A DNA stretch of 64,000 bases, from positions 620,001-684,000 of the forward strand of contig AP026164.1 in NCBI GenBank assembly GCA_030295235.1, written 5' to 3'. The stretch is from Fistulifera solaris. Lineage: Eukaryota > Bacillariophyta > Bacillariophyceae > Naviculales > Stauroneidaceae. Positions 1 to 51,600 of this stretch are shown here, in pieces. The position numbers and the translations under genes are program-made. How positions within the stretch are numbered: the stretch's first letter is position 1; each line of letters opens with the position of its first letter. The notes under the pieces were generated by a model, which searched no databases, was not told the DNA's origin, and saw nothing but the letters and a program-made list of their open reading frames with translations.

Positions 1-917
1 TGAATGGCGTGTCCGCAGGGCAAGTCCTGCGGCGATTGTCGAGAGGAAAACATATCTTCTCGACAAACGGGGCAGTTGTTTTTGTATTTGTCTTTTAAGC
101 ATTGATGTGTTTCAAAGACTGTGACGGAAATGCACATGCAGCACTGGTCACAATGACGAAAGGATTCCATTCCGCCCACGCGGCAGAAACCACATTGATC
201 GCAATGGAAGGGCTTTTTACCCTGTATGCAAATGCGTTAGCAACTACAATTTCAACATTTCAAAGTGAGAATTGACCAGTAGTTCTTACCAGTGACATCC
301 ATAGATTACAGATTCCACAATGATATTCTCCGAATATTGTGTGACAACTCGTGCACTGGTTTCTGCAAAAGAAGAGCGAAGAAAGTGTCAGAGAATGGTA
401 ACTTCTTTTCATTTTTATCAATCGATTTTACTTACGTCGCCGCTTGTCTCACGTTACAATTCTTACACACCACCTCACGAATTAAGAAACGATTCAACGG
501 CGGATGACCCGGAGGACTCAATTCATCATGACATATCCGGCAACCGAACACTCGGTTACAGCAAGGGGCTACAATGTTGCAATTTCTCTCGTAATGCACA
601 CACGCCGCACTCGCTTCTTGCGCAGGCAAGACCGGAGCCGGAGCGGGAGTCTGTATCGTGCGATTGCCCGTCATGAGTGACTGAATGCGAAATCGTTTTT
701 CATCCGCACTTAACGAAGTATCGGCCATGACCGCTTGAATAGCACGTCTTCTCGCGACAGCGGCATCTTCTTCTGCTGGAACAGGAGGAGTAGTGACATC
801 ATCCATGTCGTTCCCGTCTTCCATCGCGTCTTCGTCGTCGGAGAGATCATCCTCGTCGTTCGCACTGTGGTCGTCCATATCCATATCTTCGTCGCGAAAG
901 TCGTCGTCGTGATCCAT
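1..917 (-). CDS. CHY-type/RING zinc-finger E3 ubiquitin ligase, copy 1 (3' end cut by window)
   Basis: Resembles RCHY1/Pirh2-type E3 ligases, which combine a CHY zinc finger, a CTCHY finger and a RING-H2 domain. Three exons are visible: 917-436, 290-362 and 221 to the window edge, joined by GTAAG...AG introns. The N-terminus is very acidic (D/E-rich, about 50 residues) and is followed by a conserved RRRAIQAVMADTSLS block. The CHY finger starts at CVHYERNCNIVAPCC. Exon 2 carries paired C-x-x-C motifs, and exon 3 carries FHCDQCGFCRVGG and the RING (CPVCREDMF...LPCGHAIH). The RING second half and the C-terminal rubredoxin-like part lie outside the window. Intron positions and the 73-bp exon 2 match the copy at 12530. 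The ATG at 917 is the first in frame. A MULE lies about 170 bp upstream. The ligase role is inferred from the family. Confidence 0.85.
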
Positions 918-12529: not shown

Positions 12530-13770
12530 ATGGAGGACGAACGGTTTGCTCATGATGAGCAAGATGAGGACGACATGCAGATTGTCGATAGTGACGACGA
12601 AAATTCCGACGACGACGATGAAATGGACAACATCGATGATTCTGAAAATCCACCGGCCCCAACTGAAGAAGATGCCGCCATTGATAGAAGGCGGGCGATC
12701 CAGCAAGTCATGGCGGATACTTCAATTAGTCCAGATGAGAAACGTTTCCGGATACAGGCTATCATGAGCGGCAATCGCACCGTAATTGCACCTGCACCGG
12801 CCCCAATTCAGGCCGCCGTCGAAGCGAACGCAACTTGTGTCCACTACGAGAGAAATTGCAATATAGTTGCCCCGTGCTGTGGTCGAATCTTCGGTTGTCG
12901 TATCTGTCATGATGAATTGAGTGCACCGGGACACCCACCTATGAATCGATTTTTGATCCGAGAGATCGTCTGTAAGAATTGCCATACCAGACAACCCACA
13001 TCGTAAGTATGACTAACTTTCGTGACGTTGATCAACTTGTCATACCTCATTTTTCACTTTATTTTTTGAAGTAACAATTGTATTCACTGTCACAGTATAT
13101 TCGGTGAATTTCATTGTAATATTTGCAACTTATGGATGTCAACGGTAAGTTTCGATTTGCAGTCTTACAATCGCATGGACGAACCGTCTTCTTAATTTCC
13201 ATCAATACGTTTAGGGCAAGAAGCCGTTTCATTGCGATCTGTGCGGCTTTTGTCGAGTGGGAGGCATGGAGTCCTTCCGTCATTGTAATCAATGCTGCAT
13301 GTGTATCTCGGTTAGTGTTTTTGATACCCATCATTGTTTTAAAGACAAATACAAAAATAGTTGCCCAGTGTGCCGCGAAGATATGTTCTCCTCTCGGCAA
13401 GCACCTCAAGACTTGCCTTGCGGACACGCCATTCATGCTCACTGCTTCCGTAAGCTAGCGGGGTTCGATTATCGGTGCCCTATCTGCAAAAAAGACAGTG
13501 GTCAGTCAGCAATCGATGGCCGCGGCCTGGGAAGCCAGAGCTCGTGACATTGCGGAGCATCCCATGCCGGCTGACCTGCACCGAATCGTTGATATCATGT
13601 GCAACGACTGCGAAGTGAAGTCGCACAATTGCCAATGGCACTTTCTCGGGATCCAGTGCCCTGGATGCTCGTCATTCAATACCGTCGTTGAGAATGTTGT
13701 GGCCTCTGGGCCCGATGCTGCACCGTCAAGGAACGACGGAGGTGCCCCTAGCAACGCTGGAGGTGCATAG
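12530..13770 (+). CDS. CHY-type/RING zinc-finger E3 ubiquitin ligase, copy 2 (complete)
   Basis: RCHY1/Pirh2-like E3 ligase, paralogue of the gene at the window start. Exons: 12530-13002, 13072-13144 and 13215-13770, with GTAAGT donors. Order: acidic N-terminus; RRRAIQQVMADTSIS; CHY finger from CVHYERNCNIVAPCC; CTCHY finger across exons 2 and 3 (GKKPFHCDLCGFCRVGG, HCNQCCMCI); RING-H2 CPVCRED...LPCGHAIHAHCF...CPIC; C-terminal zinc-ribbon part (IMCNDCEVKSHNCQWHFLG...CPGC). After CPICKK the frame shifts by one base at the A6 run 13488-13493; with that allowed for, the family C-terminus continues to 13770. Exon structure matches copy 1 exactly, so the two arose by gene duplication. Confidence 0.9.
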
Positions 13771-20535: not shown

Positions 20536-21627
20536 ATGAACACTCTTAAAACAACCAATCTTCTTCGCATGGCGGGTCGCCATATTGGTAGCGGTGGACG
20601 TCGTGGTCTTTCTACTAGTACGGCGGCCTTTCGACAGGGCACCAGTAACACGAGCAAATCGCTTTTGACGGCGGCTGGGTTGGCTGTTGCGGCTACGACT
20701 ATTGTAGAGTTGCAGCGTCAGGAGGTATGTGTGATTTTTCATTGATAAATGAAATTGTGTATTATCTCGTGTCCTTGTTGCATATTGATGATTTTGTGTC
20801 ATTCCTTCTCACATACTCACCACTATCCATCCTTCCGTACGACGATATAGACACAGATTACGTGGAACTCGTTTTTTGGATCCACCGAAAAAGCAGTCAA
20901 GGCTGTCGAAGACAAGTTCGGAAAGTATTGGCCGCGCAACATTTTGATTTTGTTCGGACCTCCTGGTGCTGGCAAGGGAACACACGGTCCTGCCATTCAA
21001 GACATGTTGGGATTGCCGCAGCTATCGACTGGCGATATGTTGCGTGCGGCTGTGGCGGCCAAAACCGAAGTTGGTAAGCAAGCAGACGCTATCATGAAAG
21101 CGGGTGGTCTTGTTTCGGACGATATTGTTGTGGCGATCATCAAAGAGCGCATCAAGGATGAGGACTGCAAATTCGGTTTCATTCTAGATGGATTTCCACG
21201 CACTCTGCAACAAGCCAAAGCGTTAGATAAAATGTTAGCTGAGGAAGGAACTTGTGTCAGTAAAGTCATTGAGTTGCAAGTTCCCGATTCGGTTCTCGAG
21301 GAGCGCATCTGCGGACGTTGGATTCACAAGGAATCGGGACGTTCCTTCCATGTGAAATACGCGCCTCCCAAGTCGATGAAACTCGATAAAAACGGAAAAG
21401 CCATCCCCGAAACGATGAAAGATGATGAAACTGGCGATTTGTTGATGCAGCGTAAGGATGACACTGCCGAGGCACTTGTTGCCCGTCTCAAAAGCTACCA
21501 CAAGGAAACGGTCCCTATCTTAACGCATTACAAGCCGCACGGAGTGGTACGAACAGTCAACGCCAACCAAGGAATGGAAGGAGTTTGGAAGGAAATCAAC
21601 GAAGCACTACAGCGGGGCGGAAAATAA
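20536..21627 (+). CDS. Adenylate kinase, probably organellar
   Basis: Catalyses ATP + AMP = 2 ADP. Two exons: 20536-20724 and 20857-21627, total 319 residues. Exon 1 encodes an Arg/Ser-rich presequence (LRMAGRHIGSGGRRGLSTS) with a hydrophobic stretch (LLTAAGLAVAATTIVEL), which suggests a mitochondrial protein, perhaps held at the inner membrane. The kinase starts ILILFGPPGAGKGT (P-loop), followed by the AMP site LSTGDMLRAAV, FILDGFPRTLQQAKALD, and a long LID (CGRWIHKESGRSFHVKY...). The LID has no Cys4 zinc site. An alternative acceptor six bases upstream would add two residues. Confidence 0.9.
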
Positions 21628-21708: not shown

Positions 21709-23313
21709 TCACCTAGATCTTCTATTTCGAAAGCGTCGCAGAGGTCTTTGTATTCGAAGTCGAAACCAAATCCATAGTCGTCTTCTTGATGGGAATTGGA
21801 TCGCACCTGTTTCAAGTCCTTGTTGAACGAGCCCGGCCAAGAAACCAAGCGCCGCTCCTGCTAGAATTAACGTCAACTCATCTTCTTCAAAATGGGGATG
21901 CAATACGCGTTCGAATTGGCGACTAGTCATTCTTTCCATTCGAACACGTAAGGTGTCTTGCAAACCTAGTTGATTGTCCATGTACGAGTATGTGACCGGA
22001 ACATGCTGTGGAAGTTTTTCAATTGCAGCGTTTGACCATGAGGATATAGTCTCTGGCTTTAGTCCCAACATCGTTCCAAACGTAAGTTTGCTTAAAAATC
22101 GCTCGACATGATCACGAAATAGAGCAGCAAATGCGGGCTTGGTTTCCAGATCCGTAAGAACACTCTTCCAGAGCTGCTCAGCATTGAGGACGTTGTTGGC
22201 AAAATAGCTAGAAAACTCCTGGGCCACTTCTTTTTGACGACGTAGAAACATTCCCTGAATCGTTCCAAAAGGACCAAGTGACACCGGATCCACTGGCTGA
22301 AAAATCCACTTCAAGGCAAGCCAGTTTGTTGCCAAGCCGACGATCCCCCCACCGATGGATAAACTCCATGGATTCTCCCAAAACAAAGCGACCACCATCT
22401 GGATGATCCCCAACAAGAAACCAAACCACAAGCCACTATTTGTAAGAAAGTCCAATTCTTTTGCCCACACTTGCGAAATAAGATCCCCAGTTTACTTCGG
22501 TCTTGAAGCATTTGATTCACGACACAGTTTTGTAGATTGAAGACGGTATCGATGTTCGCTTGTATCGAAATCGTCAGTTGTCTGAGAAATTCTATGTTGA
22601 GATGTCGAACCGCGCCCTGGGAGATACCTCCCAGGCCGGACATTAGCACTGCCGGCCGGCCTGTCAACCATCCTGGAGCAACATCTTTCAAAACAGATCG
22701 AGTCAATGCAGGGACTTCTGGTGCCAGTAAGTTAGCCACCTGACCAGGATCTAACCGAGCGAATGCGTCCTTTACGCTAAGAAGCTGAGATGTAACCCTG
22801 AAGAAAAACGATTGAACGGCCTTTGAGTGCAAAACAACGCGAAATTCTGTCTCATTCATCGACTTACATGTGCACCATTGCTTCCGTCATCGGTCTCGTT
22901 TTGCAAGGTATGATACCTTGCCATCCAAGCAAGCCCAGTGGTACTTCCTGTCGACGATACAATGGAATTCCGCGAAATTCAATAGGATAAAATATCATTT
23001 GCACCGCCAGCCAGTTGGTGAACCACCCGACAAAGGCAGCGATGAGAGGAATCATAAGATGAGTTCCGGGTCGGTCTCTAAATTTCTGAATGGCGCGCGC
23101 AATAGGACCATCATGAGCACTGCTGTAAATTCTGGACTGAAACTTTTGACTGGGAAATTTCATAGCGCGGGCATACGTTTTCGGTAGCCTTGTGCTAGTG
23201 GGAGGATTTGTATTTAAGAGAGCATGACAACTTGGGTATCTTAGGCATAGAATTAGTAGGAGATATAGGTATTTCTGAAACCTTCGACCTTTTTCCGTCG
23301 TTACGTTCCCCAT
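21709..23313 (-). CDS. DUF445-family membrane protein
   Basis: Two copies of the DUF445 signature are visible, FVGWFTNWLAVQMIFYPIEF and GLATNWLALKWIFQPVDP, each next to a membrane segment. Exon 1 (23313-22868) starts with a signal or organelle presequence (YLYLLLILCLRYPSCHA). Exon 2 begins at 22797 and the join restores MVTSQLLSVKDAF. Near 22485-22488 a CCCC run (GGGG on the coding strand) must gain a base to join ...DRSKLG to DLISQVWAKEL. The C-terminus ends with another hydrophobic segment and an Arg-rich tail. Known homologues are membrane proteins of unsettled function. ATG 23313 is the first in frame. Confidence 0.8.
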
Positions 23314-23995: not shown

Positions 23996-25545
23996 ATGAC
24001 TGGATCACAGTTACTCACCGAGTCAAGTGACTTCCGAGAAATGAAGGAACTTCAAAAGACAACTGGTGCTTTCATTGAGGTATCGGAAGAAGCTGTCAGA
24101 AGGTTGAATTCCTCCACAAGCGTTACTTCTAGTCCATCAGCAAGTTGTTCGGGCTTTCCGAACGACCAGCCAAGCGAGTCTACGTCAACAACAACAGCAG
24201 CGACCAGCACAGATTCGGTTACTAACTCCACGGTCACCATTTCGAAGGCGACCAAGAAACAACTGCAAAAGCAAGAACGCGATGCGGCTCTGACGTATGT
24301 GTTGCAGCAGCAACTGGAGAGACAAATTGCTTACTACTTTTCACCCTCCAATATGAAAACAGATACGTATCTTCGAACTCTGCAGGAACTGAACGACGGC
24401 TGTGTCCCTGTGAGAGCCCTTGCTAATTTCGGTAAAGTGAAAGGAATTTTATGGGCGACACCTACGTTGACGAGGCAGTATCTAGAGGAGGAAGCGCGAA
24501 TGGACATGATTGTGCGGTCTATTCAGCAAAGTGAGACCTCCATCTTGCAAGTAGAAGAAATTGACACTTTGACTGGAAAGATCCTAGAGGAGAGCAATGA
24601 TCGACACGCCAGAAACACGATCGAAGGGATACGCATCAAGCCTGGTATTGAGTTGAGTATGGTTTCGTTTGGAGAGAGCAATGTCTCAAACAGCTTATCC
24701 GAGACAAATGTTAAAACAATACTTCTCCGAGATGTACACCCTGGTGTTAGTGAAGAGCAGGTTCGCCATTTACTGCTTAACGAAGTGGTAGATTGTCCTA
24801 GCGTCGTGAGCGTGCATCGAGACGTAGCAAACTGCTGGTGAGTGCGGCACTATTTGTACAGTACATGTTTCGCGACGACGCTATTGTGCTTATTAATTTG
24901 TTTCAATTTTCATGCAGGTTTATTAAGCTGGATTGTGACTCGAAGGAAACCATGCTGGCTGTCGTCATGCAACTGCGAAGTCTTACATTGGCGGGTGAGT
25001 ACATTCACGCCAGACTAAAATCTTCTACTCTTCACCAAGCTCCTCCCTTGGATCCTGTGGCAGTGGTGATTGCTGAGCAGGTCGCACGTAGGAGAAGGAA
25101 GAAGCGAGGACCTCGGCGGAATAAGAAGAAATCGCTAGAACTCGACAATCTGGTTCGAACTGGGGAACTGTCAAAGTCAGCAGGACCTCCCACACTAGAG
25201 GGTGATAACAAGCACAGCAGAGAAGTCAACGACCCACCTCGGCTGCTTGAAGAAAGTGACTTCCCAGGACTATCTGAAGAAACTGCGGACACGGTATCTT
25301 CGAACGAAAGAATTCGCTCATCATTAGAACCAAATAGCCCGACTGATTGTTTATGTTATAACGAAGTCCCTGGGAGATATGCTGCAGCTTTGCTTAAGCC
25401 AAAATCGTCTTCAAAGGAAGCTAGAGAAAATAAAGACGCCGCTCCCACTGGGGGCGGTCTCCAGGCAAAGTCTGCTGATGATCGGGGAAGAGCACAGCGG
25501 AAATCGTTCGCTGAGGCTGCGCGTGCTGTCTCCTTGAAGCCTTAA
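23996..25545 (+). CDS. La-related (La-motif) RNA-binding protein
   Basis: Two exons, 23996-24837 and 24918-25545, joined at NCW-FIKLD. A Ser/Thr-rich N-terminus precedes a La motif: LERQIAYYFSPSNMKTDTYL ... VPVRALANFGKVKGI. An RRM-like part follows (KTILLRDVHPGVSEEQVRHL ... VVSVHRDVANCWFIKL). The C-terminus is basic (RRRRKKRGPRRNKKK) and ends in a conserved-looking RKSFAEAARAVSLKP. La motif plus RRM makes up the La module of LARP4/6-type proteins, which bind RNA 3' ends or poly(A). Which LARP class this is cannot be settled. Confidence 0.8.
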
Positions 25546-30138: not shown

Positions 30139-31116
30139 TTAAAGTTGTTCCTGCAGTTTCGCCAGCTCGGCTTGCTTCGCTGCCAGAATGGCTTGTAAGT
30201 CTGCCAAATCGACATCGGCATCTTCCTCTTCTTCTTCATCATCCTCTTCGTCGCCATCGGACTCGGCATTTTCATCGGCTCCCGCCTGTTCACCTTCCGG
30301 CTCCTCTGTGAGATCATCTTCCCCATCGTCCTGAATCTCAATCGCCGTCTCGATCTCTTCTGCGCGTGTTTCATTAGCCTGCTCACTCACTTCCGGCGTG
30401 GGTGTTGATTCGGTGACTACAGGCTCTGGTTCTACTGGTGTTTGAGGTAAAGGGATGGGTGCATTCACTACAGCAGACGGAACAGAAAGCGATTCATTCA
30501 TTTCCATTTGCATTCGGCGGCGGTAGTGCTTGTTTGGACTATCATCATACTGCCCTTGACGGATATTCTGACCCGCTGCAGTCGAGCGGAGCTTCGTTTT
30601 AGTCCAATTTGGTTTGAACGCCGGTCGCTCCGCCTGACGGCCGTATCTTCCGTAGTCAGTTTGATGCGAGTTGTTGGGAATACCTTCGGAACTATACATA
30701 GTCCTTAATTTCTCAATAAAGCCAGGAGGAAGTTTAGCTCCGCGTAAATAGGATTGATAGTCCGGATCTGATTCTTTGACACCAAATCCTTCGAGCACCT
30801 TCGGGTCGATTCGAAAGTTACGACCGCTGGCTCTCGGACTCGCCGGGCTTTCTTCTCCTTTTTCGCTACGGCCCTGCCAGTTGCTGTTGAAAGCAACAGG
30901 GATACCATCAGATCCCAGCTTCAAGTTTCCCTCTTCGTCAAACAGAGCCCCCATATCGTTGATTTCAGCAAACTGATTGAAGTATGTTGCCATTTGTTCC
31001 TCTAGCTGACGCTGCGCCTGCTCCTCGTCAAGATCCAAAATATAATGCGGTGTGCATTCCATCCACCACTCAGGAACGCGGCCGACTCCTACAGGTAAAT
31101 CTTCCACTTGAGCCAT
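30139..31116 (-). CDS. KPxW-repeat cluster gene A: GVGRVPxWWM-module protein
   Basis: Function unknown. The 325 residues divide as follows. Residues about 10-60 form a conserved module (VGVGRVPEWWMECTPHYILD ... EEQMATYFNQF). A middle part includes RIDPKVLEGFG and LPPGFIEKLRTMY. There is one KPxW-type repeat (FKPNWTKTKLRSTAAGQNIR, about 185-205). A Pro/Glu-rich acidic linker follows, and then a C-terminal coiled segment (LQAILAAKQAELAKLQEQL). The gene at 36521-38580 has the same order of parts, so the two are paralogues. No signal peptide or membrane segment, so it is probably cytosolic or nuclear. ATG 31116 is well supported by its match to an internal Met in the paralogue. Confidence 0.85.
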   Translation of the reverse strand: MAQVEDLPVGVGRVPEWWMECTPHYILDLDEEQAQRQLEEQMATYFNQFAEINDMGALFDEEGNLKLGSDGIPVAFNSNWQGRSEKGEESPASPRASGRNFRIDPKVLEGFGVKESDPDYQSYLRGAKLPPGFIEKLRTMYSSEGIPNNSHQTDYGRYGRQAERPAFKPNWTKTKLRSTAAGQNIRQGQYDDSPNKHYRRRMQMEMNESLSVPSAVVNAPIPLPQTPVEPEPVVTESTPTPEVSEQANETRAEEIETAIEIQDDGEDDLTEEPEGEQAGADENAESDGDEEDDEEEEEDADVDLADLQAILAAKQAELAKLQEQL

Positions 31117-31677
31117 GATTTGCTGTTTTTGAAGCTTTGTATGGTTGTAACGTGGCTAGGTTTGGTTATCCACGGTTGCGTTTTTGTTCTGGTCATTGAT
31201 AAACGGCTTTCGAGGGTCTTGGTTAAAGCAGCATCGGGGATCTTTTCACGAAAGCGAGGGGAGGTGGGTCATTTCTTTTCTTGAATGGCTTTCGATGGCA
31301 TGACAGACGAAAACTGATTAGGCTATGCTATACTGAGTACTAATAACGATGACTTATGACCTGAGCCTAAACCCGAGTGGTGACTCAATTCTTTCCGTAC
31401 AAGTAGGAACTCCGCCGCATTGATTTTTCAGAACGTTTGAGTTGGTGATCTGCTCCTATCGATTCTCTACCAAAGAATAATCAAACGAGTGATGTCTACT
31501 AGAATGGTGTATTTGGCTTCATCCAAACATGCAATACTATCAACGATTTGAATCAGCTAGATTCAAGCGTTATTCTTGTTAGTTAACATCGAAAAGGTCA
31601 TGTAATAGTAAATATGACTATAGAGGTCTAAACATTTTGAGCAAACGCAATCAAGACTGTTCAAAAATGAGGGTCGA
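31117..31677. other. Intergenic, no gene recognised
   Basis: About 560 bp between two minus-strand genes of the cluster. Contains the promoter of gene A. No conserved frame seen. Confidence 0.5.
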
Positions 31678-32309
31678 TCAGCTTGCAGCGCTCATGTTCG
31701 AGCTGCTGCCGCACAAATTTTGGGGTCCGAACAAGTCCTCGACCGACAATTTTCGAACCAATCCTTGACGAGGAGTTCGGGTTGCACTGCGCATGAACTC
31801 TAAGCTACCTGAAGACTTGTAACTTCTCGGTTTCGTCCGTTTATCCAAAGTGGAAAGAATCACTTTCCCTTCTTGGCCATCAAATGAAATGTTGCGAGTG
31901 ACACCCCGTCTTGGAGGCGAGTCGCATTCACGGCGAGGTTTAGGGAAACTTTCGTCCGAGAAGGAGGTGTTTCTTCCTGGTGGGATTCGAAGATGATGGG
32001 TTCGCCCGCTGGGATCCTTGGGGCTTGGTGTAGAACATGCGTGAATCATCTCAGTCTTCGATAGAACAGATCTGGGTGTTTTTGTACTCATTTCGTCCTC
32101 CATAGTATTCGATGTTTCCGCTGCAATGCTGCGATCCTCCTCGTTTGAATCCGTCCCATCGACCTCCTCATCACTTTCAACGACGACCACAGATTCGTCC
32201 TCAAAGTCTTCTCCGTCACTTCCCAATTCACTGATCGAGTGAAACGAGCCATGAAACGAGTCTCCGAGCGTTCCACTCTTCTTTTCGGGCTGCTCAAATA
32301 TTCGGCCAT
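31678..32309 (-). CDS. Ser-rich acidic protein of unknown function within the KPxW cluster
   Basis: No family recognised. The long frame 32226-31678 opens without an ATG. One base more in the TTTT run at 32282-32285 would join it to ATG 32309, giving MAEYLSSPKKKSG ... GDSFHGSFHSISELGSD, then an acidic stretch (ESVVVVESDEEVDGTD) and a Ser/Arg-rich half. That half has possible phosphorylation sites such as VTRNISFDG and VRKLSVEDLFG, both basic-x-x-S type. No KPxW repeat and no Trp seen, so it differs from its neighbours despite its place among them. Start and joining are inferred. Confidence 0.55.
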
Positions 32310-33365
32310 GTTCACTATGGACTCTGATTACACTGTTTTGGTAGTGAAAGATTGCAATTTATGATTTCTTCCAGCTTTCGGCACGAAATGTTTGCTTTGC
32401 ATTGAAAGGAAAGGGAAGTCGCGAAAATGCGTTATTGCGTATCGCGTACTGGTAGTCCTAAAAAAAGGCCCGGAGCGCTTTCATGTTACCAGTACAATGC
32501 CTCAAGTCACACACAATAAAGTGCACCCAGTCGAAGCCTGCTTCTTGCGCCGCGGCTTCTTACTTCTCAGTGCTCAGTTCATTGAACGGGTCATTCGTCG
32601 TTCTTCCGGAAAACGCAGCGGTACTTGATCTACATCCTACGCAATACGCAATGTTCGAATACAGTTATGACTTATGACCTCCGCTACTCTTAATAGGCTA
32701 TGGTCTATGGTCTGTCATCGATGTTGCCCCGAAACTGGTGAACTGTGGACTGTGGAGAATCCCTGGATCTCAAATCTCAGTGAACAACGAACAACGAACA
32801 GATATTTGTACTAATCGAAGGAGTGTGAATGTGTAACCAGTAATCAGGTACGGTACCGGTACGCTGATTGTACAAAGTACCTACCTACAACGGTCTACGT
32901 CCGTCCGCGTCCCACGTAGCACTGGTAAGTCCCGAGTCCCTCTAGTGATTGAGGATCAGTATGAGAACGAATGATGCATGATCTAATTAACAAATCTTCC
33001 AGCTACAGAACATGACGAGGAGCATCAACCAATATCTATAAATTAACATCAAAATAATAAAGCCTAAAGCTTACTTCTTGAAATATGATGTTCTATCTTT
33101 CTCCTTCACATTGGATCTGGGACACTCGTTCTCCTAGATTCTTCGACGACGAAGCTCTCGAGAAAAATTCCATTGACGTTATCTCTACTTACTCTTCCAT
33201 AACGATGTCATATCATTTATGAGAGAAAAAAGTTAATAGGTATGCTGAAATCTAATAATTATCAATTTATTTGCACGACCATTACACGACCGGGCGTCAG
33301 ACCCAAGACACAATGGAATGAGAAAGTTCGACAAGCAGAAGGTAAAACATAGTTTTCGTCGATTT
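32310..33365. other. Intergenic, no gene recognised
   Basis: About 1.05 kb between two minus-strand genes. The plus-strand frames near 32392-32677 look like chance. No repeats of note. Confidence 0.5.
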
Positions 33366-33752
33366 CTAATCATCGACAGGTTTGATGCCACCAATGGGTC
33401 TAGCAATTTCTTTTCCTTCTTTCAAAGCAGCACCCTTGTCACTGGTCTTGATCGGAGCATTCTTCGTCCAGTCGGGCTTTTCCCACTGGAGATTTCCTTC
33501 GGTGTGAGGAAGGCTCGTAATAGGCTTCGCAAGATCGCCTTGGATTCGCTGTCCTTCTTTGGCAGCAGCTTCACCAGTCCATTCGGGCTTCTTGAAATCC
33601 AGGTCTTCTTGTTTCTGATGCGGCAGATTTGTGATGGGCTTGGCCAAGTTGCCTCCCGATTTCAGGTCGGTGCCCTTTCCGGTAGACCGAAGCTTGGGGC
33701 CATTTGTAGCCCAGTCGGGTTTCTTCCAGGAAAGATCTTTATCGTCGTCCAT
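33366..33752 (-). CDS. KPxW-repeat cluster gene B: compact three-repeat protein
   Basis: A 128-residue protein made almost entirely of three tandem copies of the repeat: WKKPDW...KPIT (residues 9-41), FKKPEW...KPIT (53-79) and WEKPDW...RPIG (90-121). Each copy runs W/F-x-K-P-D/E-W, a short spacer, a G-x-x-L/I-K-x-G-like middle, and P-I-T/G. The second copy is shortened in the middle. The end, ARPIGGIKPVDD, matches the end of gene E (SRPIGGIKALED). ATG 33752 follows directly upstream of repeat 1. The frame stays open upstream to 33842 without an ATG, so an extra upstream exon is possible. Function unknown; no targeting signal. Confidence 0.8.
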   Translation of the reverse strand: MDDDKDLSWKKPDWATNGPKLRSTGKGTDLKSGGNLAKPITNLPHQKQEDLDFKKPEWTGEAAAKEGQRIQGDLAKPITSLPHTEGNLQWEKPDWTKNAPIKTSDKGAALKEGKEIARPIGGIKPVDD

Positions 33753-34658
33753 GGTTTTAGCGTCTCTGTGGTGATAGCAACGATCTTTGAGGTTGCTCTG
33801 CCGTTTGATGTTCTTTTGATTTTTTGTGCCAGCTGCACACAAGAAGCACGGAGGAGCGATCGAGGTCTACAATCGTGGTAAGACAAGGGCAGTTAAAAGA
33901 TCTTTTACACTGTCCGATAAAAAGTAAGCAGAGCAATCTTTCGGCTTGCCTTGGCAAGACTTCGATTTGGCGCGCGCTTTTAGAGGTCATTATTTCGGTC
34001 ATTTTGATTGGGGTCATTATTTTGCGTGCGTCGTGCGTCGTCCGTCGTCCGGCGTCCGGCCCTCTGAAACTTGCTTTCGTCTGGATGAAGACTTACCGGT
34101 TCTAAAAGTCATTGTGCCACTGAAAGAGAATGACGCCTGAAACGTCCTTTCTTTTTTCTTTTCTAAAAACTTTCCACAGGCCACAGGCCACAGGTACCGA
34201 TACCGGGTACTCATAGTCATAGGACTTTTGGTACTCGTTTTGCATTGTTTTAAGAAGAAGATCAAGCGCCATTAGCTCTACCTTCGAGCCCAACAGTAAT
34301 TCAATAATGTCAGTCTTTCATCCGCCCATCGAGTTTGTTCACGTAGGTTACGGTCGTAAATTATCGAATGAATAGTGTGTTGACGTAGTAAGCGGTTAAC
34401 AACAGCCTCATCTTGATCATGAATAAAAGGGAGCAAAATTATCCAACTTTGACTTCTTTTCTCCCTTCTGCTATTTCTTGTTCATAAACATTAGTTTGAA
34501 TTAAAAGAATAACAAGAAAAGAAAGAATAAAAGCTGAAACACGCGTCTAATAAAATTACTGCTGGTGAGCCCTTTACCGGCCGAGACATTTGCGACACCG
34601 CCGCTTGAATCTATAATTTACTGCGGCTTACCTGTTGAAACAAAACGACTGCTTTGAG
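33753..34658. other. Divergent intergenic region with simple repeats
   Basis: About 900 bp between genes B (minus) and C (plus). It contains a GTC/CGTC-rich low-complexity stretch at 34021-34060 and three perfect tandem copies of CCACAGG at 34174-34194. It probably holds the promoters of both genes. No coding sequence recognised. Confidence 0.6.
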
Positions 34659-36369
34659 ATGGCGGAAGAAGATGACATCGAAACGGATCCTCTGGCGCCC
34701 TATCAGAAGGAGAAAGTGATATGGAGCGAACATATGGCAGAAGCCCGACCTTTTCTGATGCCAGACGACGAAAATGAAGGGGAAGTTGTTGAAATACTTC
34801 CACCGGAAAAAGAGAATCGCAAAATAATGTGGGCGGACGAAATTCATATTTGCGAGATGCCGAATAGACGACAGCTTGGTATGATAACGGATGAAGAAGA
34901 TGACGAAGATGATAATAGCTACGAAATTGAAATCGTTGAAGATGATGGCGATGCCGACTTTTATCTTGAGATTGTCGACGGAGAAATCTTTTACGTGTTC
35001 GAAACCGAAGACGATTCGGATGAGGATATGGATGATGGTAGTCTTTCAGACACAGGGTCGGTCATTGAGGAACCTCGGCCGACGCTTTCTTTACCAACAT
35101 CGCAAATGATGGCACTCCCATTGGGTGACGATGACCGTGATGCGGTACATCAAACGGAGAGCTCTGCGATGGTTATCGATGATGTCCCGTTGCATTTAGT
35201 TGAACTAGAAGAGGAAGTGGTCAATATGGAGGATGATAAGGTAGTAGAGTCGATGCCGCAGCAAGAACAAGGTGACGATGAAGTGGCTAGGCCTGATGCA
35301 GAAGAAACAGATGCTCGCAAAGCAATGGATGCTACCATTCCTGTCGAAGAAATTCCTTCACCAGTTGACTTTATGTCTCCACTTACTACTCCTGAACAAG
35401 AACCGAAAGCTAAGATGGCACCCGGTCCGTCAGAACGGGTGGCTCTTATGATTCCATCATCACCGCAAGCCCCTGCACCGGTTTCGTTGAAAGCGCCACC
35501 TAAGTCTCCAACTAGCCCAGGACGGTCCATTTTGAAGGCATGTCCACCGAGCCCACAACGCAGACCTAGAGAAAACAAAGAGAAGAAGGCCAAAGGAATT
35601 AGAAAGACATACGTCAGAGCCGATACATTCGATGGTGAACATCAGGTATTTACGTGGACAAAGCCGGATTGGGTTCAAGAAAACAAGTTGAAGCAGACCG
35701 ATCGTGGTCAAGACGTACGCCAGGGAGTCAACCTGGCGAGTCCTATTACTTTTCCCAAGCAGGGCAAAAGGTACCACGAACAGAATGATCACCACGCCAA
35801 GGACGTATATGAAGACGAGAATGGTAATGTAATTGACAAGGAAGAACTCATTCGACGTATCCAAGCGGGCGAAGAAGGGGTCATGGCTTTTGTTCCTCGT
35901 CCTACTTACGGAGGAAAATATCAACGAAAGCTGCGTTTCAGTGAGAAAGGGCAGCAAATCCGGAGTGGCGTGAATCTAGAGAAGCCTATTACCAAGGCTA
36001 CTGTTGATCGAAAGCGTGACGATATAAACTTGTTGGCACAACCGAAGGATGTTCTGAAGAAGCATGTGCAGGTTGAAAAGAAAGAGTACGGTTGGCAAAA
36101 AACCGGAATGGGCGAAGAAGGCACCAAACAAACTCATGCATAGCCCTTCCAAAGCAAGGAAACATTACACGTGGGATGCTCCGGAATGGACGAAGCCGAA
36201 CCTAAAGGGATCAGGAAGAGGCGATGCGATGAAGAAGTTGGGGAAGTTAGAGAAACCTATTACGCATATTGCTGAACATGTAAGGCGTCACTCAGGAACG
36301 AAAACTGGGCTACCAATAGACACAGACCAGGAGTCGGAAGAAATGACTCTTACCGAGATTGAAGATTGA
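34659..36369 (+). CDS. KPxW-repeat cluster gene C: large acidic four-repeat protein
   Basis: Function unknown; about 569 residues. The first 120 residues are strongly acidic, with two Trp-containing spots (KVIWSEHM, KIMWADEIH). A Pro/Ser-rich middle has several S-P pairs (PKSPTSPGRSILK, CPPSPQRR). The C-terminal third has KPxW repeats: FTWTKPDW...SPIT; a variant starting FVPRPTYGGKYQ...KPIT; a short GWQKPEWAKKAP; and YTWDAPEWTKPNLK...KPIT. The frame shifts once at the A6 run 36097-36102, and with that allowed for it runs to 36369. ATG 34659 is the first ATG; the frame opens earlier with TTG. Convergent with gene D, 151 bp between stops. Confidence 0.82.
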
Positions 36370-36520
36370 TTGCCATGCGGTATTTGGAACAGCCTAGTTT
36401 TGTAACATATCCAGCAAAATCGTATAGCCACATATTGCCCATATCATACACCTAGGAAGCATCTTGCTAAAAAAGATTAAAATAAACGAAGAACTATACT
36501 GTTGGTTGGCCTGACGTTAA

Positions 36521-38580
36521 CTAACGAAATCGAGCCAGCTGAGCCTGCTTAGCTGCTAGCTTAGCTTCAAGCTCACTTATCGCTTCCTCCTCTTCCTCTT
36601 CGTGAATATTCAATCTCACCAGAATCGTCAATTACCTCTTCTTCATAATACGATGATCCATCTTCGACAGTCTCTTCATCCACAAATACTTCATGAATTG
36701 AAAGAACTTCTTCCTCTTCTTCGTAATAGAGATTTTCACCATTTACTTTCTCATTATGATCATAGTATTCCTCGACCTCCTCATATTCTTCTTCGTCGTA
36801 GCGTTCGTCGGTAGCTGGGGTTACCAACGCCAGCTCCGAATCATCTTCATCTGCTAAGAACATTAGCTTATGTGTCACTCGTGGCTCTTCTTGCTCTGGT
36901 CCACGCGTAACTGCAATGGGTTGCGCTTGTTTGTAATTTTGAGAACTTGGCGCCTGCGTAGGTCTCCAGGAAGGTGGTGGGTTACTAGGTGCGGGCTTCG
37001 GGGGCGTCTTTTTTCAATCCAGCACGTGCGTCCAGAAAGTGTGTTCCTTGTGCTACAGGTTGATAAGATGAGACGCGTATTGATGGTGGCTCACTCAGGA
37101 GTGAGCCATTCATCAGCCGCTCTGAATGGACATGTTTGTTGTTGGTAGTTACGGGCGTCTGCGCTTCCGACTCGTCGCTTATTTGCCTCATTTTACTTGG
37201 AGGTGGTGTTCTCGCTGGAACCTGCTTACTTCGAGGCGGTGACATTGCTTGGACGGGCTGCTTATTTTCTTGACGATTTAGGTTTGCTTTTTGTTGACCC
37301 ACAGCGTTAGCGTGTGTCGGAAAAGATGAGCGTGTTCCGTTAGTTGCGCTGTGCTCTAAAATCTGCGAATTCTGAGGCCTCTTTGGTGAACCATTCGTTG
37401 CTTTTAACGATGGCTTCTGCATAGGTGGAGGCGACACTCGTCGCCGTGGGGAAGCTGAGTTTCGTTTTGGTGAAGACGTTGTGCTCCTACCGTTTGCTTG
37501 CGGTGTTGATAATTTCTTTGCTTTAGCTCCTGAAAGTGCCCTGGGACTTCTTCTTGGTGATGGTTGGTCGTGGTGTGGCACCTGGGTAGCTGCTGATTTT
37601 TCGGGTGATAAAGGAGCTTTCTTCTTTGGCACTCGTCTTATTTTTCGAACTAGCCTTTTACCTCCAACAATCATTACCGCAGGCTTCTCACTGAAATCCG
37701 ATGACGGTGACCCACCGAAACGGCGCGTATAACCATTAGGGCCCTCGTCAATATCTACCCCACTTCGTATCATGTCTCCTTCCTTCGAATGCTTCAATTT
37801 CATCCTTGCCCAACTCGGTTTGTTATCGTCTTTTGATGCCCCATATTTCTTGTATTCAAGTTGATTTGGCGTAATACCACCGTACATTTCCTGCATCTTT
37901 AACTTGAATTCATGTGGCAAGAGTTCTCCAGTTTCATACAAGGGAAAATCAGGGTCTTTATCAGCAATTCCAAATAGCTTCGGATTCAATCGAATGCGCA
38001 GTTCTTGTATTCTCGACCAATCGGGTTGCCCATCCGGAAGCGTCACCAAATGACCGTCTTGTCCTACGAGACCCGCAGCGGCAAGTTTCAAATAGTAATG
38101 AGACATTTGTTCCTGCATCTTCGTTTGAGCCTCATGTTCCGCCAGGTCTAATGTGTCGTGAGGTGTGAGATCCATCCACCACTTTGGAACTCTCCCCACC
38201 CCGATCGGCAGGGGCGCCTGATTCTGCACTATCTGTTTTACAACGGGTTTCGCTGACATGATCGATCTCCGAAATGAAATAGGAATGTTTTTACGACGTG
38301 AATAATACGAATTTGTTGTCGGCACTGTCGAGGCACTTTTTCGAAACGTTCGTATTCCATGGATGTCATTTCGAATTGGTTTGTTCGCGTCAAAGAGTGG
38401 AGGGACCGGTACTGAAGGTGTTTCTTTTTCAAATAATCGGGTCATTTTCGTTGACGACCTCAACGAAAATGGTGGCAAGGAAAATGGCGTGAAAGTCGCA
38501 CCGTCGGACTTCCTAAAAGTACTTACAGGGCGCGTCGACGGAATTAGTTTAAGTACCCAACCCAACGGATTTATGAACAT
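36521..38580 (-). CDS. KPxW-repeat cluster gene D: paralogue of gene A
   Basis: Shares the full layout of gene A: IGVGRVPKWWMDLTPHDTLD, then LNPKLFGIADKDPDF, LLPHEFKLKMQEMYGG, one repeat (NKPSWARMKLKHSKEGDMIR), a long Pro/Ser/Lys linker rich in S-P sites, an acidic Tyr/Glu stretch, and a C-terminal ELEAKLAAKQAQLARFR that matches gene A. Frames join through the T6 run 37009-37014 and one further offset near 36600, so the stop is at 36521. The conserved part begins at an ATG at 38259. The frame stays open to an earlier ATG at 38580, adding 107 residues without recognisable content, so the true start is uncertain. Confidence 0.82.
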
Positions 38581-38976
38581 CTAATTAATTTTGTGGACTG
38601 TCTCTTGTCCTGTTCTGTCTCATCCCACTGTTACTAACTTTGATAGCAGATTGTACGAATGACCCAAACCATGACGACTCCTCTTGTCATGTTGCACTCC
38701 GCACCCTACCTCGCTAAGCAAATGTCTCAGATTTTTCACGGGAAGTACAATAGGAGTCACACAACCCTTCTCTAATGTCAGTACTGCTGAAATGGCTAAG
38801 CAAGGATGGAGAAAGCTCCCCTCGACCAAGACCTCATTCCTTCTTGGTTTGACGATGGTAAACAGAGGTACTGGTACGGTACTTGACAATCCATTTCCTC
38901 AGAAGTCAGAGATCAAACATAACAATATTATATACGCCGACAGCCACCATTTCCCTGACCTTTTATTTCCTTCGCC
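38581..38976. promoter_or_regulatory. Shared divergent promoter region of cluster genes D and E
   Basis: A 396-bp interval between head-to-head genes D and E. No TATA box or other element can be named with confidence. The head-to-head arrangement suggests the two may be expressed together, but that is inference. Confidence 0.4.
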
Positions 38977-39990
38977 ATGACAGTCTACGACCAAAGCGAT
39001 AGCGACGACTCATCCTATGAAGAACAGAGTGAGAGTGAAAGCGAATACACAGAAGAAGAAGTTGAGGACGAAAGTTTTGAAGAGGACGATACAGAATCTT
39101 CAAGTGTCGTTATAGAATCCAAACCAATCAAGATTACATCGTTCTGGGAAACATCCATTCCCACATCTCCCGGCAAAAAGGAGCAAGTTGAAAGTTCCAG
39201 TAGCGATGATGAAGACACGGACGACTCCAGTCGTAGCGACGCGAAAGAAATATCGGTACAAAAGACGTCAATTTCAAAGGTTCTTTACGTGTCACAAGCC
39301 TCACCGGTCCGGGTCAAAGAAGATCACCCTTCCGTGCTAAAACAGGGTCCTTCGACACCAGTAGCACCGTCTCCGCCTCCCGTTATTGTGGTTGGACCGA
39401 CAGCACCAGTCCCGACCCCAGAAGTTGTGGTGCAAACGCCGGTACAAGTACCGGCTTCCGTCGTTGTGGAGGAGCCTGCATCCCCTGTCTCTCCGCCGGC
39501 TCCTGTGATCCAATCTCCGGTGGCCGCTCCGACATCCGTAAAACCATCATCCCCAACGAAACTAGCCCAATCCCCCGTCAAAGTTCCATCTCCACCTGCG
39601 ACCAAGACAGAACCGTCACGAGCTCCGACAACTACGTTTCATCGACCTGCAGGCTTTGCACGAGAAAATGAACCAGCAGCAGCAGACGACGACGACGACG
39701 ACAAATTGGCCTGGAAGAAGCCGGATTGGGCGAAAAAGACGGTACTACGGGCCACCGAAAAGGGCGATTTGCTCAAGCATGGTGCCACTCTGGCAGTTCC
39801 AATTACGAAAATCAGTGAAGTAGTAGAAAAGGAAAAGAAAAATTTAGGCTTCGCCAAGCCTGAGTGGACCAAGACGGTAAATCTCAAAAAGTCACAGAAA
39901 GGAGATAAGATGAAAGCTGGCGAATACATTAGCCGACCCATTGGAGGCATCAAAGCGTTGGAAGATCAAGTCCATTCATCTAATTTGTAG
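38977..39990 (+). CDS. KPxW-repeat cluster gene E: acidic/Pro-rich two-repeat protein
   Basis: Function unknown; 337 residues, single exon, ATG 38977 in a good context (GCCATGA). Layout: acidic Ser/Glu N-terminus (about 1-85), a Pro/Val/Ser linker (about 105-225), a run of six Asp, then two tandem repeats: WKKPDWAKKTVLRATEKGD...VPIT and FAKPEWTKTVNLKKSQKGD...RPIG. It ends GGIKALEDQVHSSNL. The last repeat and tail resemble those of gene B. The protein is acidic at the front and Lys-rich at the back, with no signal peptide. Confidence 0.85.
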   Translation: MTVYDQSDSDDSSYEEQSESESEYTEEEVEDESFEEDDTESSSVVIESKPIKITSFWETSIPTSPGKKEQVESSSSDDEDTDDSSRSDAKEISVQKTSISKVLYVSQASPVRVKEDHPSVLKQGPSTPVAPSPPPVIVVGPTAPVPTPEVVVQTPVQVPASVVVEEPASPVSPPAPVIQSPVAAPTSVKPSSPTKLAQSPVKVPSPPATKTEPSRAPTTTFHRPAGFARENEPAAADDDDDDKLAWKKPDWAKKTVLRATEKGDLLKHGATLAVPITKISEVVEKEKKNLGFAKPEWTKTVNLKKSQKGDKMKAGEYISRPIGGIKALEDQVHSSNL

Positions 39991-48628: not shown

Positions 48629-51600
48629 ATGTCGATAACCAATAGTAACGAAAGCTATTGCACATTTACGCTCCCTTCGGATGTGGCGGCAGGAGGCTTG
48701 CCATCGCAGGAGGAAATTGCGAAAGATTTGGAATCCAATGATACGGAGGTACGTTGCATGGCTTTGTTGTCGTCTGCGTATTGCTTATTTGAACGATGTT
48801 GTGCAAGACCTAGTTATTCATAGCCTACCGTTTAAACTGAAATTTAGTAGTAGGAGAGGCGATTAATTGTGGTTCTTTTCGTACCAAAATATTGTGCGGT
48901 GTTGTTGACAGTGCAAATATACTAACACTCGGCTCACAACGCACAGGTCAAGAAGCTTGCGCTGAAGGCCGCTATTATGGCAATGCTAGGCGGTGAAGCG
49001 ATGCCAAGAATCTTGATGCAAGTCATCCGATTTTGCATCAATAGTAGTGACAAGCAACTCAAAAAACTTTGCATGTTGTACTGGGAAGTTGTCCCCAAGT
49101 ACCAAGAACCAACATCGGAAGAGTTGCTTGCTGCTCTTTCCGGTGGTCCTCCTGCTCCTAGGAAAATGCTGCCGGAAATGCTTCTTGTCTGTAACGCCCT
49201 CATGAACGATCTCAACCATCCCAACGAGTACGTCCGTGGTAGTATGTTGCGTTTTCTTTGCAAGGTTAAAGATGAGGAGATTCTAGGTCCTTTGATCCCT
49301 TCGATCAAGGCATGCTTGGAACACCGTCACCCCTACGTGCGCAAGAATGCGGCACTCGCTGTATTTCATGCTCACAAGCTGCACGGAGAGGCGCTCCTAC
49401 CGGACGCTGCGGAAATCATGGCAGCATTCATTCAGGCAGAAACGGACTTAGCCGCTCGTCGAAACGCTTTCCTCATGCTTTTTAACGAATATGAAGACCT
49501 TGCTATTGAATTTTTGGCCAGAAACATGGATAACGTCAGTCAATATGGCGATGGTTTTGCTTTACTTGTCCTGGAGTTGACTCGTCGTGTGTGCCGACGT
49601 GACCCGATGCAAAAGTCTCGGTTTGTGAGGGTTCTCTTCGTCATGTTGTCCTCCACCTCGTCGGCGGTTTCGTATGAGGCTGCATGGACACTGGTTTCGT
49701 TGTCGTCGGCTCCAACTGCGGTCCGTGCGGCGGCATTGACCTATGTGAATCTCCTGAACGGACAAAATGACAACAACGTCAAATTGATTGTCTTGGAACG
49801 CTTGGAAGGACTCAAGAAGAAGCACTCTAAAATATTGCAAGAGCTTCTTATGGATATTCTCCGTGCGCTCAGTAGTCCTAATATTGACATTTGCAAAAGG
49901 TGTTGGATATTGCCATGGACGCTGTTACGGTCCGCAACGTACAAGACGTTGTCACGGTACTGAAACGTGAAGTTACGAAGACCATGGAAGACTCCGACAC
50001 TGACGGAAAGGGATCGGTGTACCGTAACCTTCTTATCCGTTCCATCCATGGTTGTGCTGCTCGATTTCCTCAGGTTGCGGAAAGCGTAGTGCACACTTTG
50101 ATGGACTTCTTGAGTACTGATTCGGGAATGCAAGTTGTTATTTTTGTCCGTGCCATCGTTGAACACTATCCCGATTTGCGCGTTCCACTTCTCAAAAAGC
50201 TCTTAGGATCATTGGAAGATGTTCAGTCGAACCAGGTGCTCTGTGTTTCTCTCTGGATTTTGGGTGAATACAGCGAGACAGTGGAAGGTATTGTCGAAGC
50301 CTTTGATACCATCTCGGAACAAGCTGGATCTCCCCCGTTTGTCTCGCAAGCCAAGGACAAGGATGAGGATGTCAAAGCCTCCGAGCCAAAAATTGTTACG
50401 AAGAATGTGGTCTTGGCGGATGGTACGTACGCGACACAGACGATCTACAGCGAGGCTAAGGCCCCCGTTTTGAGCGATTCGACACCTGCGCTTCGTCGAA
50501 TGCTTGTAAATGGTGATGTTTTCCTTGGAGAAATCCTGGCATCATCCTTGACCAAGCTCTGCTTACGAGCTGAGGATATGCCTCAATTCGACGCAATTAT
50601 GTTGAAAAGATGACCGCCGAAGCTGTTCTCATGATGTGCGGTGTTGTCAAAATGGCCGAGCTTACGGTCACAGCTCAACGCTCGAGCCTCAATGACTGCC
50701 AAGAGCGTATTACAGTGTGCTGTCGTGCTCTATTAGATCCAAAGGCAAAGAATCTGCTCAAGAAGCCTCTGTTGACGGATGGGCGAAAACGTTTCGCGGA
50801 ATTTCTCAAAATCTTGAAAGACAAAGAAGCAAGTGAAGCTAAGACAAAGAAAATGAAAGAAAGCGAGGAAATAATGACACAGGCCGACGATCTAATTCAC
50901 TTCCGTCAGCTACGAAGTATGGCCGTTCAAGGAGGCGATGTTGACTTGGATGACGGTGCTGATTTGGCCCGGGCGACTGGTTACGATAGCGCCGACTCGC
51001 TCTTGAGTTCGGAGTTAAACCACGTTTACCAGTTGAGCGGATTTGCTGATCCTGTTTACTGCGAAGCATTGGTGACTGTTCATGACTACGACATCGTTCT
51101 GGAAATTCTTGTTGTGAACCGCACCGCAAATACCCTTTCTAATCTCACCGTAGAATTGGCGACGATGGGCGATATGAAAATTGTTGAACGTCCTCAATCT
51201 CAATCAATTGGGCCCATGGACCAAATCAACATTCGCGCTTCCATCAAAGTCAGCTCTACAGAAACTGGTCACATCTTCGGTACAATCGTTTACGACGACG
51301 CAGCCACACAAACGAAGTGTTACATCAATCTCAACGACATTCACATGGATATTATGGACTACATTCGACCGGCCACTTGCTCAGACGAAGCTTTTCGCTC
51401 GATGTGGGCTGAATTTGAATGGGAGAACAAGGTCGCTATTTCTACTTCGATCACCTCCCTTTTGGACTTCTTAAACCACATTGTCACGTCGACAAATATG
51501 CGTTGCCTTACGCCACATGATAAAACGGAGAAAGGTAGCTTTTTGGCGGCCAACTTGTATGCAAAGAGGTGAGTTTCACAGTGTTTCTGAACCCCGGATT

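Follow-up and report, generated by a model that had tools for sequence, protein, structure and literature searches.

A cluster of Fistulifera solaris genes sharing a short KPxW repeat, with a possible role in multivalent docking

The window analyzed here, a stretch of 64,000 nucleotides of nuclear DNA from the diatom Fistulifera solaris (contig AP026164.1, positions 620,001 to 684,000; C4:620001-684000), was taken from a eukaryotic assembly of 51.7 Mb in 61 contigs. It contains six consecutive genes, A, X, B, C, D and E, five of which (A, B, C, D and E, at window positions 30139, 33366, 34659, 36521 and 38977) encode proteins with a unit of about 33 residues, W/F-x-K-P-x-W-[TA]-x(4-6)-L-[KR]-x-T-x-K-G-x-x-L-K-x-G-x-[NDE]-[LI]-A-x-P-I-[TG], here called the KPxW unit; the sixth gene, X, is without it. 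An earlier note on this DNA, made from the sequence letters, had proposed a repeat of this kind in the same five genes, with eleven or so copies, and had named a match to a known domain or scores at the level of shuffled sequence as grounds against it.

For detection of the unit, a hidden Markov model (HMM) was built from 224 units of homologous proteins, with P0076 (at 89% identity to gene B) and every gene-A-type match excluded, and was run on the 1,603 stop-to-stop segments of the window, with 20 shuffles of every segment as control. Seven window units scored 31-58 bits (E 2e-8 or better), followed by 15.6 (C), 15.2 (A), 9.7 (C) and 7.7 bits (D), and the top score among the shuffles was 9.4 bits. 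Nine of the eleven units are clear, the third unit of C is marginal and the unit of D fails alone; an unrelated window segment (20812-21021) reached 7.8 bits. The D unit was kept because the N-terminal part of D is paralogous to A (40% identity over ~190 residues, E 1e-22), with KPSWARMKLKHSKEGDMIRSG at the corresponding position. K, P, W and the last P of the unit were partly preset by the pattern used for collecting units; K (for which K/A/R were allowed) and W (W/Y allowed) are invariant in the collected units, and outside the pattern L occupies column 15 in 87%, T column 19 in 80% and A column 35 in 78%. The best conserved positions in the homologue alignment of gene B are the anchors of its units. 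Coordinates of all features are given in Table 1.

Table 1. Genes, KPxW units and related features. Coordinates are those of the window, except where an L prefix marks another segment.
Feature	Coordinates	Strand	Description
Gene A	30139-31116	-	325 aa (amino acids); GVGRVPEWWM block and helix (N-terminal), conserved middle block, one unit, acidic tail, C-terminal helix DLQAILAAKQAELAKLQ
A unit	30550-30615	-	FKPNWTKTKLRSTAAGQNIRQG; HMM 15.2 bits; conserved in A-type alignment
Gene X	31678-32226	-	open reading frame fragment, 182 aa, between A and B; no KPxW unit
Gene B	33366-33752	-	128 aa; three KPxW units, little else
B unit 1	33630-33731	-	58.3 bits
B unit 2	33516-33596	-	short type; 34.6 bits
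B unit 3	33390-33488	-	ends RPIGGIK; 52.8 bits
Gene C	34659-36369	+	acidic N-terminal half, then four units; frame broken at six-A run 36097-36102
C unit 1	35655-35750	+	40.5 bits
C unit 2	35925-35993	+	W-KP-W head absent; 15.6 bits
C unit 3	36097-36129	+	partial; 9.7 bits in window, 14.1 bits in C3 copy
C unit 4	36181-36264	+	31.3 bits
Gene D	36521-38259	-	GVGRVPKWWM block, basic KRLVRKIRRVPKKK stretch, Pro/Ser-rich middle, acidic tail, A-like C-terminal stretch
Gene D frame breaks in window	37009-37014; near 36610		six-T run; second break by eye
Gene D in C3 copy	L010:6114-7850	-	open, 578 aa
D unit	37750-37821	-	KPSWARMKLKHSKEGDMIRSGVD; 7.7 bits only; backed by alignment to gene A
Gene E	38977-39990	+	337 aa; acidic Ser-rich front, Pro-rich middle, two units, RPIGGIK near end
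E unit 1	39709-39807	+	48.5 bits
E unit 2	39847-39945	+	49.5 bits
SH3BGR-domain protein, degenerate KPxW units	L013:3347-5188 and L012:3294-5156	+	contigs C36/C37; 613 aa on C36

Beyond the unit itself, the common traits listed in the earlier note held for part of the cluster. The gene described there as nothing but three repeats is B, for which ATG 33752 is the most likely start. The ending RPIGGIK is common to B and E but not found in A, C or D, and acidic fronts occur in C and E, A and D being acidic towards the C terminus instead. Local duplication is borne out for A and D by their paralogous ~190 residues, but B, C and E have just the unit in common. Between A and B, gene X is rich in acidic residues and in Ser and Arg, and by eye it has phosphosite motifs like RNISFD and RKLSVEDLF; no in-frame ATG was seen upstream of it, perhaps owing to another indel.

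A second copy of the cluster is located on contig C3, of which the fetched 30 kb match window positions 20689-49303, with 84-89% DNA identity over seven aligned blocks, as would be given by the allodiploid Fistulifera genome described in the available text of PMC13276009. The best homologue of gene A was Fistulifera solaris FisN_5Hh292 (93% identity). In the C3 copy, gene C is open at the break site of the window and gene D is whole, and the breaks that the C3 copy has in its own A, C and E lie at other sites; the frame breaks of C and D in the window therefore look like assembly indels, which would explain them most simply, the alternative being a true loss in one of the copies. Two of these breaks fall in runs of six identical bases, and among the tubulin and light-harvesting matches of the same assembly some contain stops, maybe from introns or indels. 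Same-strand open reading frames (ORFs) that adjoin or overlap in different frames were also seen at window positions 21709-22859, 23996-25545 and 48977-51572, where introns or assembly indels are to be expected, so that frame breaks in the window are not to be taken as pseudogenes.

Comparison of the C3 and C4 copies gave ratios of nonsynonymous to synonymous substitution (dN/dS) of 0.075 for A, 0.032 for B, 0.160 for E and 0.121 for X, and, in two parts each, of 0.069 and 0.023 for C and 0.161 and 0.182 for D; two neighbors resembling XPB and adenylate kinase (named by eye) gave 0.030 and 0.013. The cluster genes are under purifying selection. The codon adaptation index (CAI), with 20 light-harvesting genes (3,097 codons) as reference, was 0.689 for gene B against a maximum of 0.657 among 33 window ORFs of at least 200 aa, a list in which the other KPxW genes (A, C, D, E) and one or more antisense frames are included; values were ordinary for A (0.581), C (0.595), E (0.534) and D (0.529).

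Homologue searches yielded 75 proteins with gene A as query and 93 with gene B, and 176 at E<=0.1 with an alignment as the gene B query, from which the best 120 of 176 were taken. The 198 proteins collected stem from A and B queries only, so few orthologues of C, D or E are expected among them; the nearest cluster gene was A for 75, B for 119, E for 3 and C for 1. They span ~32-93% identity and come from many contigs. B-type proteins had three units in 86 of 119 cases and one to five in the others (HMM E<0.01). An organism name or taxonomy id accompanied 6 of the 198 (F. solaris, Phaeodactylum tricornutum, Mayamaea, Epithemia, taxonomy id 265537, Entomoneis paludosa, and taxonomy id 265536, Amphiprora), and all six belong to the Bacillariophycidae, the raphid clade. 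No relative of gene B was found in GTDB genomes with the gene B alignment as query, and none of A or B in IMG/VR with the gene A and gene B alignments.

Source contigs longer than 5 kb were compared for 33 A-type and 32 B-type homologues, and identical sizes were found in four pairs on three contigs, with the source agreeing each time; 0.03 pairs were expected by chance (10% jitter), and at least three occurred in 1 of 20,000 runs. One size, 10,815 bases, recurred for three proteins: one A-like, one B-type, and a further A/D-like one in which a basic stretch reads LVRKTRKVRR. These matching contig sizes suggest that A- and B-type genes adjoin in other diatoms as well, and since they involve A-type, D-like and B-type homologues in other sequence sets, the cluster is probably old. 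In a tree of the A-type proteins (75 rows), A and D were separated weakly (88/76) and the D branch was very long (2.6), which leaves the age of the A/D duplication undated.

None of the proteins could be assigned to a known family, in agreement with the earlier note, which knew no named domain of this pattern; with nine of eleven units clearly above shuffled sequence as well, neither of the grounds named there against the repeat was borne out. Pfam gave nothing above the curated cut-off for A-E (best stray E 0.05) and 0 matches for 29 single units. Scanning of the 72- and 74-member alignments, for which no cut-off was printed, gave scattered matches that were taken as chance: Glyco_hydro127M in 8 of 72 members (best E 0.0019), DUF4657 in 2 of 74 (0.0015), IFT20 in one member (0.00049), TEDC1 in one (0.001) and others in one member each. 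No PDB sequence was matched at E<0.001 (best E 0.2) by a search that included genes B, C (first frame), D and E and three alignments, and no paper on a KPxW repeat was found in a literature search that left out supplements and reached few subscription papers. Structure prediction for gene B with AlphaFold2, as proposed in the earlier note, gave short helical turns only and no confident fold, with a mean predicted local distance difference test score (pLDDT) of 67 and a predicted template modelling score (pTM) of 0.18. The gene A model (pLDDT 62, pTM 0.25) was better at about residues 30-70, 100-140 and 300-325, with helices at 29-54 and 300-324; helices above pLDDT 80 were found in A only, one of them near the C terminus. 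Foldseek, run with the gene A model, brought up no usable structure (best E 1.9, prob 0.03). By hydropathy, A-E (D from the C3 copy) have neither a hydrophobic N terminus nor a membrane segment, in line with the absence of targeting signals stated in the earlier note.

Proteins that otherwise have nothing in common carry a short conserved unit in varying copy number, in variable chains without a confident fold; such a pattern points to a linear module for docking onto a multivalent partner that all of them share. The reading preferred here, which we consider evenly balanced between right and wrong, is that the KPxW proteins form a soluble, mostly disordered family whose module of ~33 residues docks on one common multi-site partner. 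The module would be used one to five times per chain, in a family placed by organism name in raphid pennate diatoms so far; each unit would dock, either extended or as a short helix, by means of its tryptophans and of its LKxT and PIT anchors, and the common partner, presenting many sites, would be a polymer or oligomer, presumably met in the cytosol or nucleus. Gene B, which has three units and a codon bias above that of all other ORFs compared, may encode an abundant soluble cross-linker; A and D would each add one unit and a C-terminal helix that could pair, and C and E would carry units hung on acidic tails. The scaffold or polymer-binding role guessed in the earlier note is one that we, too, infer rather than observe.

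The closest precedent is PYCO1, the Rubisco linker of the Phaeodactylum pyrenoid, in which, according to the available text of PMC10288592, tandem tryptophan stickers bind Rubisco; it gives the use of Trp stickers by diatoms a precedent. Our best reading is that the KPxW proteins may be analogous, not related, to this sticker protein. As described in the same text, PYCO1 is likewise a diatom protein, disordered and multivalent, with a repeated short motif in which an essential Trp stands beside Lys and Pro, and a repeated Trp motif in a disordered chain was also found here (unit HMM; pTM 0.18 for B, the low confidence being read as disorder). The PYCO1 motif is KWSP(R) (PMC10288592, available text), whereas that of the cluster is KPxW, and no homology was detected.

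Several observations weigh against the docking module as the common basis of the family. A unit was detected at E<0.01 in 43 of the 75 A-type proteins, one in each, leaving 32 with none, and A-type conservation lies largely outside the unit. In gene B, conservation extends to the LPH that comes after units 1 and 2, so the units are not the sole constrained part. Low pLDDT may also arise where alignments, here of 72 and 74 rows, carry too weak an evolutionary signal, and the PYCO1-type motifs KWSP and GTGYNP occurred in 0 of 198 homologues and in none of A-E. The codon-bias argument for gene B is based on 129 codons, a short gene that gives a hint only.

Among the alternatives, an action on nucleic acids or chromatin is the best placed, although we regard it as unlikely: Lys-rich units would touch DNA or RNA, with acidic tails as in histone chaperones. 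In its favor, A, C, D and E join basic units to long acidic tracts, and a basic VRKVRKV stretch is present in the A-type consensus, but the gene B protein is almost neutral (net +1) though it consists of little but units, the near-invariant tryptophans and PIT suggest protein-protein contact, and no nucleic-acid domain was matched.

Ranked behind it, and likewise improbable, is an actin-binding module working like beta-thymosin/WH2, by which the proteins would organize the raphe-associated actin of gliding diatoms. Beta-thymosin/WH2 modules are short and tandem, with an L-K-x-T core after an aromatic/aliphatic stretch, as in the KPxW unit, and tandem copies occur among thymosin/WH2 proteins. 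We take KPDWA...KLRST of the unit to resemble KPDMA...KLKKT of thymosin, and the aromatic/aliphatic spacing ahead of L-[KR]-x-T presumably recalls WH2. The pre-LKxT stretch of the unit is, by contrast, shorter than that of thymosin, and an extra PIT/PIG anchor follows. Membership of the unit in this family was unsupported, the hhalign score against thymosin beta-4/-10 (8.6) being at chance level, equalled by 4 of 20 column shuffles, and no WH2/thymosin Pfam match was obtained in the 72 members, 74 members or 29 units. The placement of all six organism-assigned homologues in the Bacillariophycidae would suit a function in gliding, as would raphid-specific myosins (PMC11420354) and 241 genes with a high raphid signature (PMC7335047), both as given in the available text of these papers.

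The same raphid homologues, motors and gene sets make raphe actomyosin attractive as the partner of a docking module. That the KPxW proteins are a raphid-diatom invention, clustered multivalent scaffolds assembling raphe-associated actomyosin or its coupling to secretion, is doubtful, and we rate it below the actin-binding module; the partner is its weakest step, tempting but unproven. If true, a family of cytoskeletal scaffolds would exist in gliding diatoms and in no other organisms.

A reading of the set as plastid or pyrenoid linkers, on the lines of PYCO1, is disfavored and would surprise us: Rubisco is bound by tandem tryptophan stickers of a diatom protein (PMC10288592, available text), but PYCO1-type plastid targeting was not found, A-E being without a hydrophobic N terminus as well as KWSP. 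Among the 184 homologues that begin with Met and have 60 aa or more, only 3 showed a hydrophobic start, and by eye these three appear wrongly started. Low-complexity chance similarity or functionless neutral repeat expansion, to which the compositionally biased (acidic, Pro/Ser) non-unit parts might lend themselves, is contradicted by the shuffle control, by dN/dS far below 1 and by the range of divergent homologues, and is given almost no credence.

The cluster adds to diatoms, in which many genes are still without known function, a protein repeat for which the searches made here gave no described family, and a probably conserved gene neighborhood. If a cytoskeletal or cell-wall polymer is the partner, the docking module would offer a molecular handle on gliding and valve formation. 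CRISPR/Cas9 genome editing of F. solaris is reported in the available text of PMC13276009, and knock-out and tagging are feasible in this species and in Phaeodactylum.

Elsewhere in the assembly, the protein queries matched only the C3 copy, a pair on contigs C36 and C37 and one stop-containing match on contig C26 (E 0.018); the tool scores best candidates only, and divergent units may be missed. In the C36/C37 protein, an SH3BGR domain (PF04908; cut-off 21) scores 28.2 bits in one copy and 32.8 bits in the other; behind it lie two degenerate units (E 1e-4 to 5e-4), which may be a degenerate form of the same KPxW module. It couples SH3BGR to such units, in contrast to A-E, from which that domain is absent by Pfam. 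Two further SH3BGR-like stretches were noticed by eye in this protein, and a short ORF with a MYND-like zinc finger (by eye) lies ahead of it (L012:2806-3300). In segments L014-L016, no KPxW unit was found by the HMM. A DNA pattern for more KPxW genes (TKBNNNAARCCNNMNTGG) was dropped as evidence, with 208 matches against 232 for the reverse control. Further from the cluster, similar ORFs at window positions 432-917 (-) and 12530-13006 (+), each acidic at the front and rich in Cys and His at the C terminus (CVHYERNCNIVAPCC...FGCRICHDE), form a local duplicate pair in opposite orientations; by eye, the C-terminal part resembles a CHY zinc finger.

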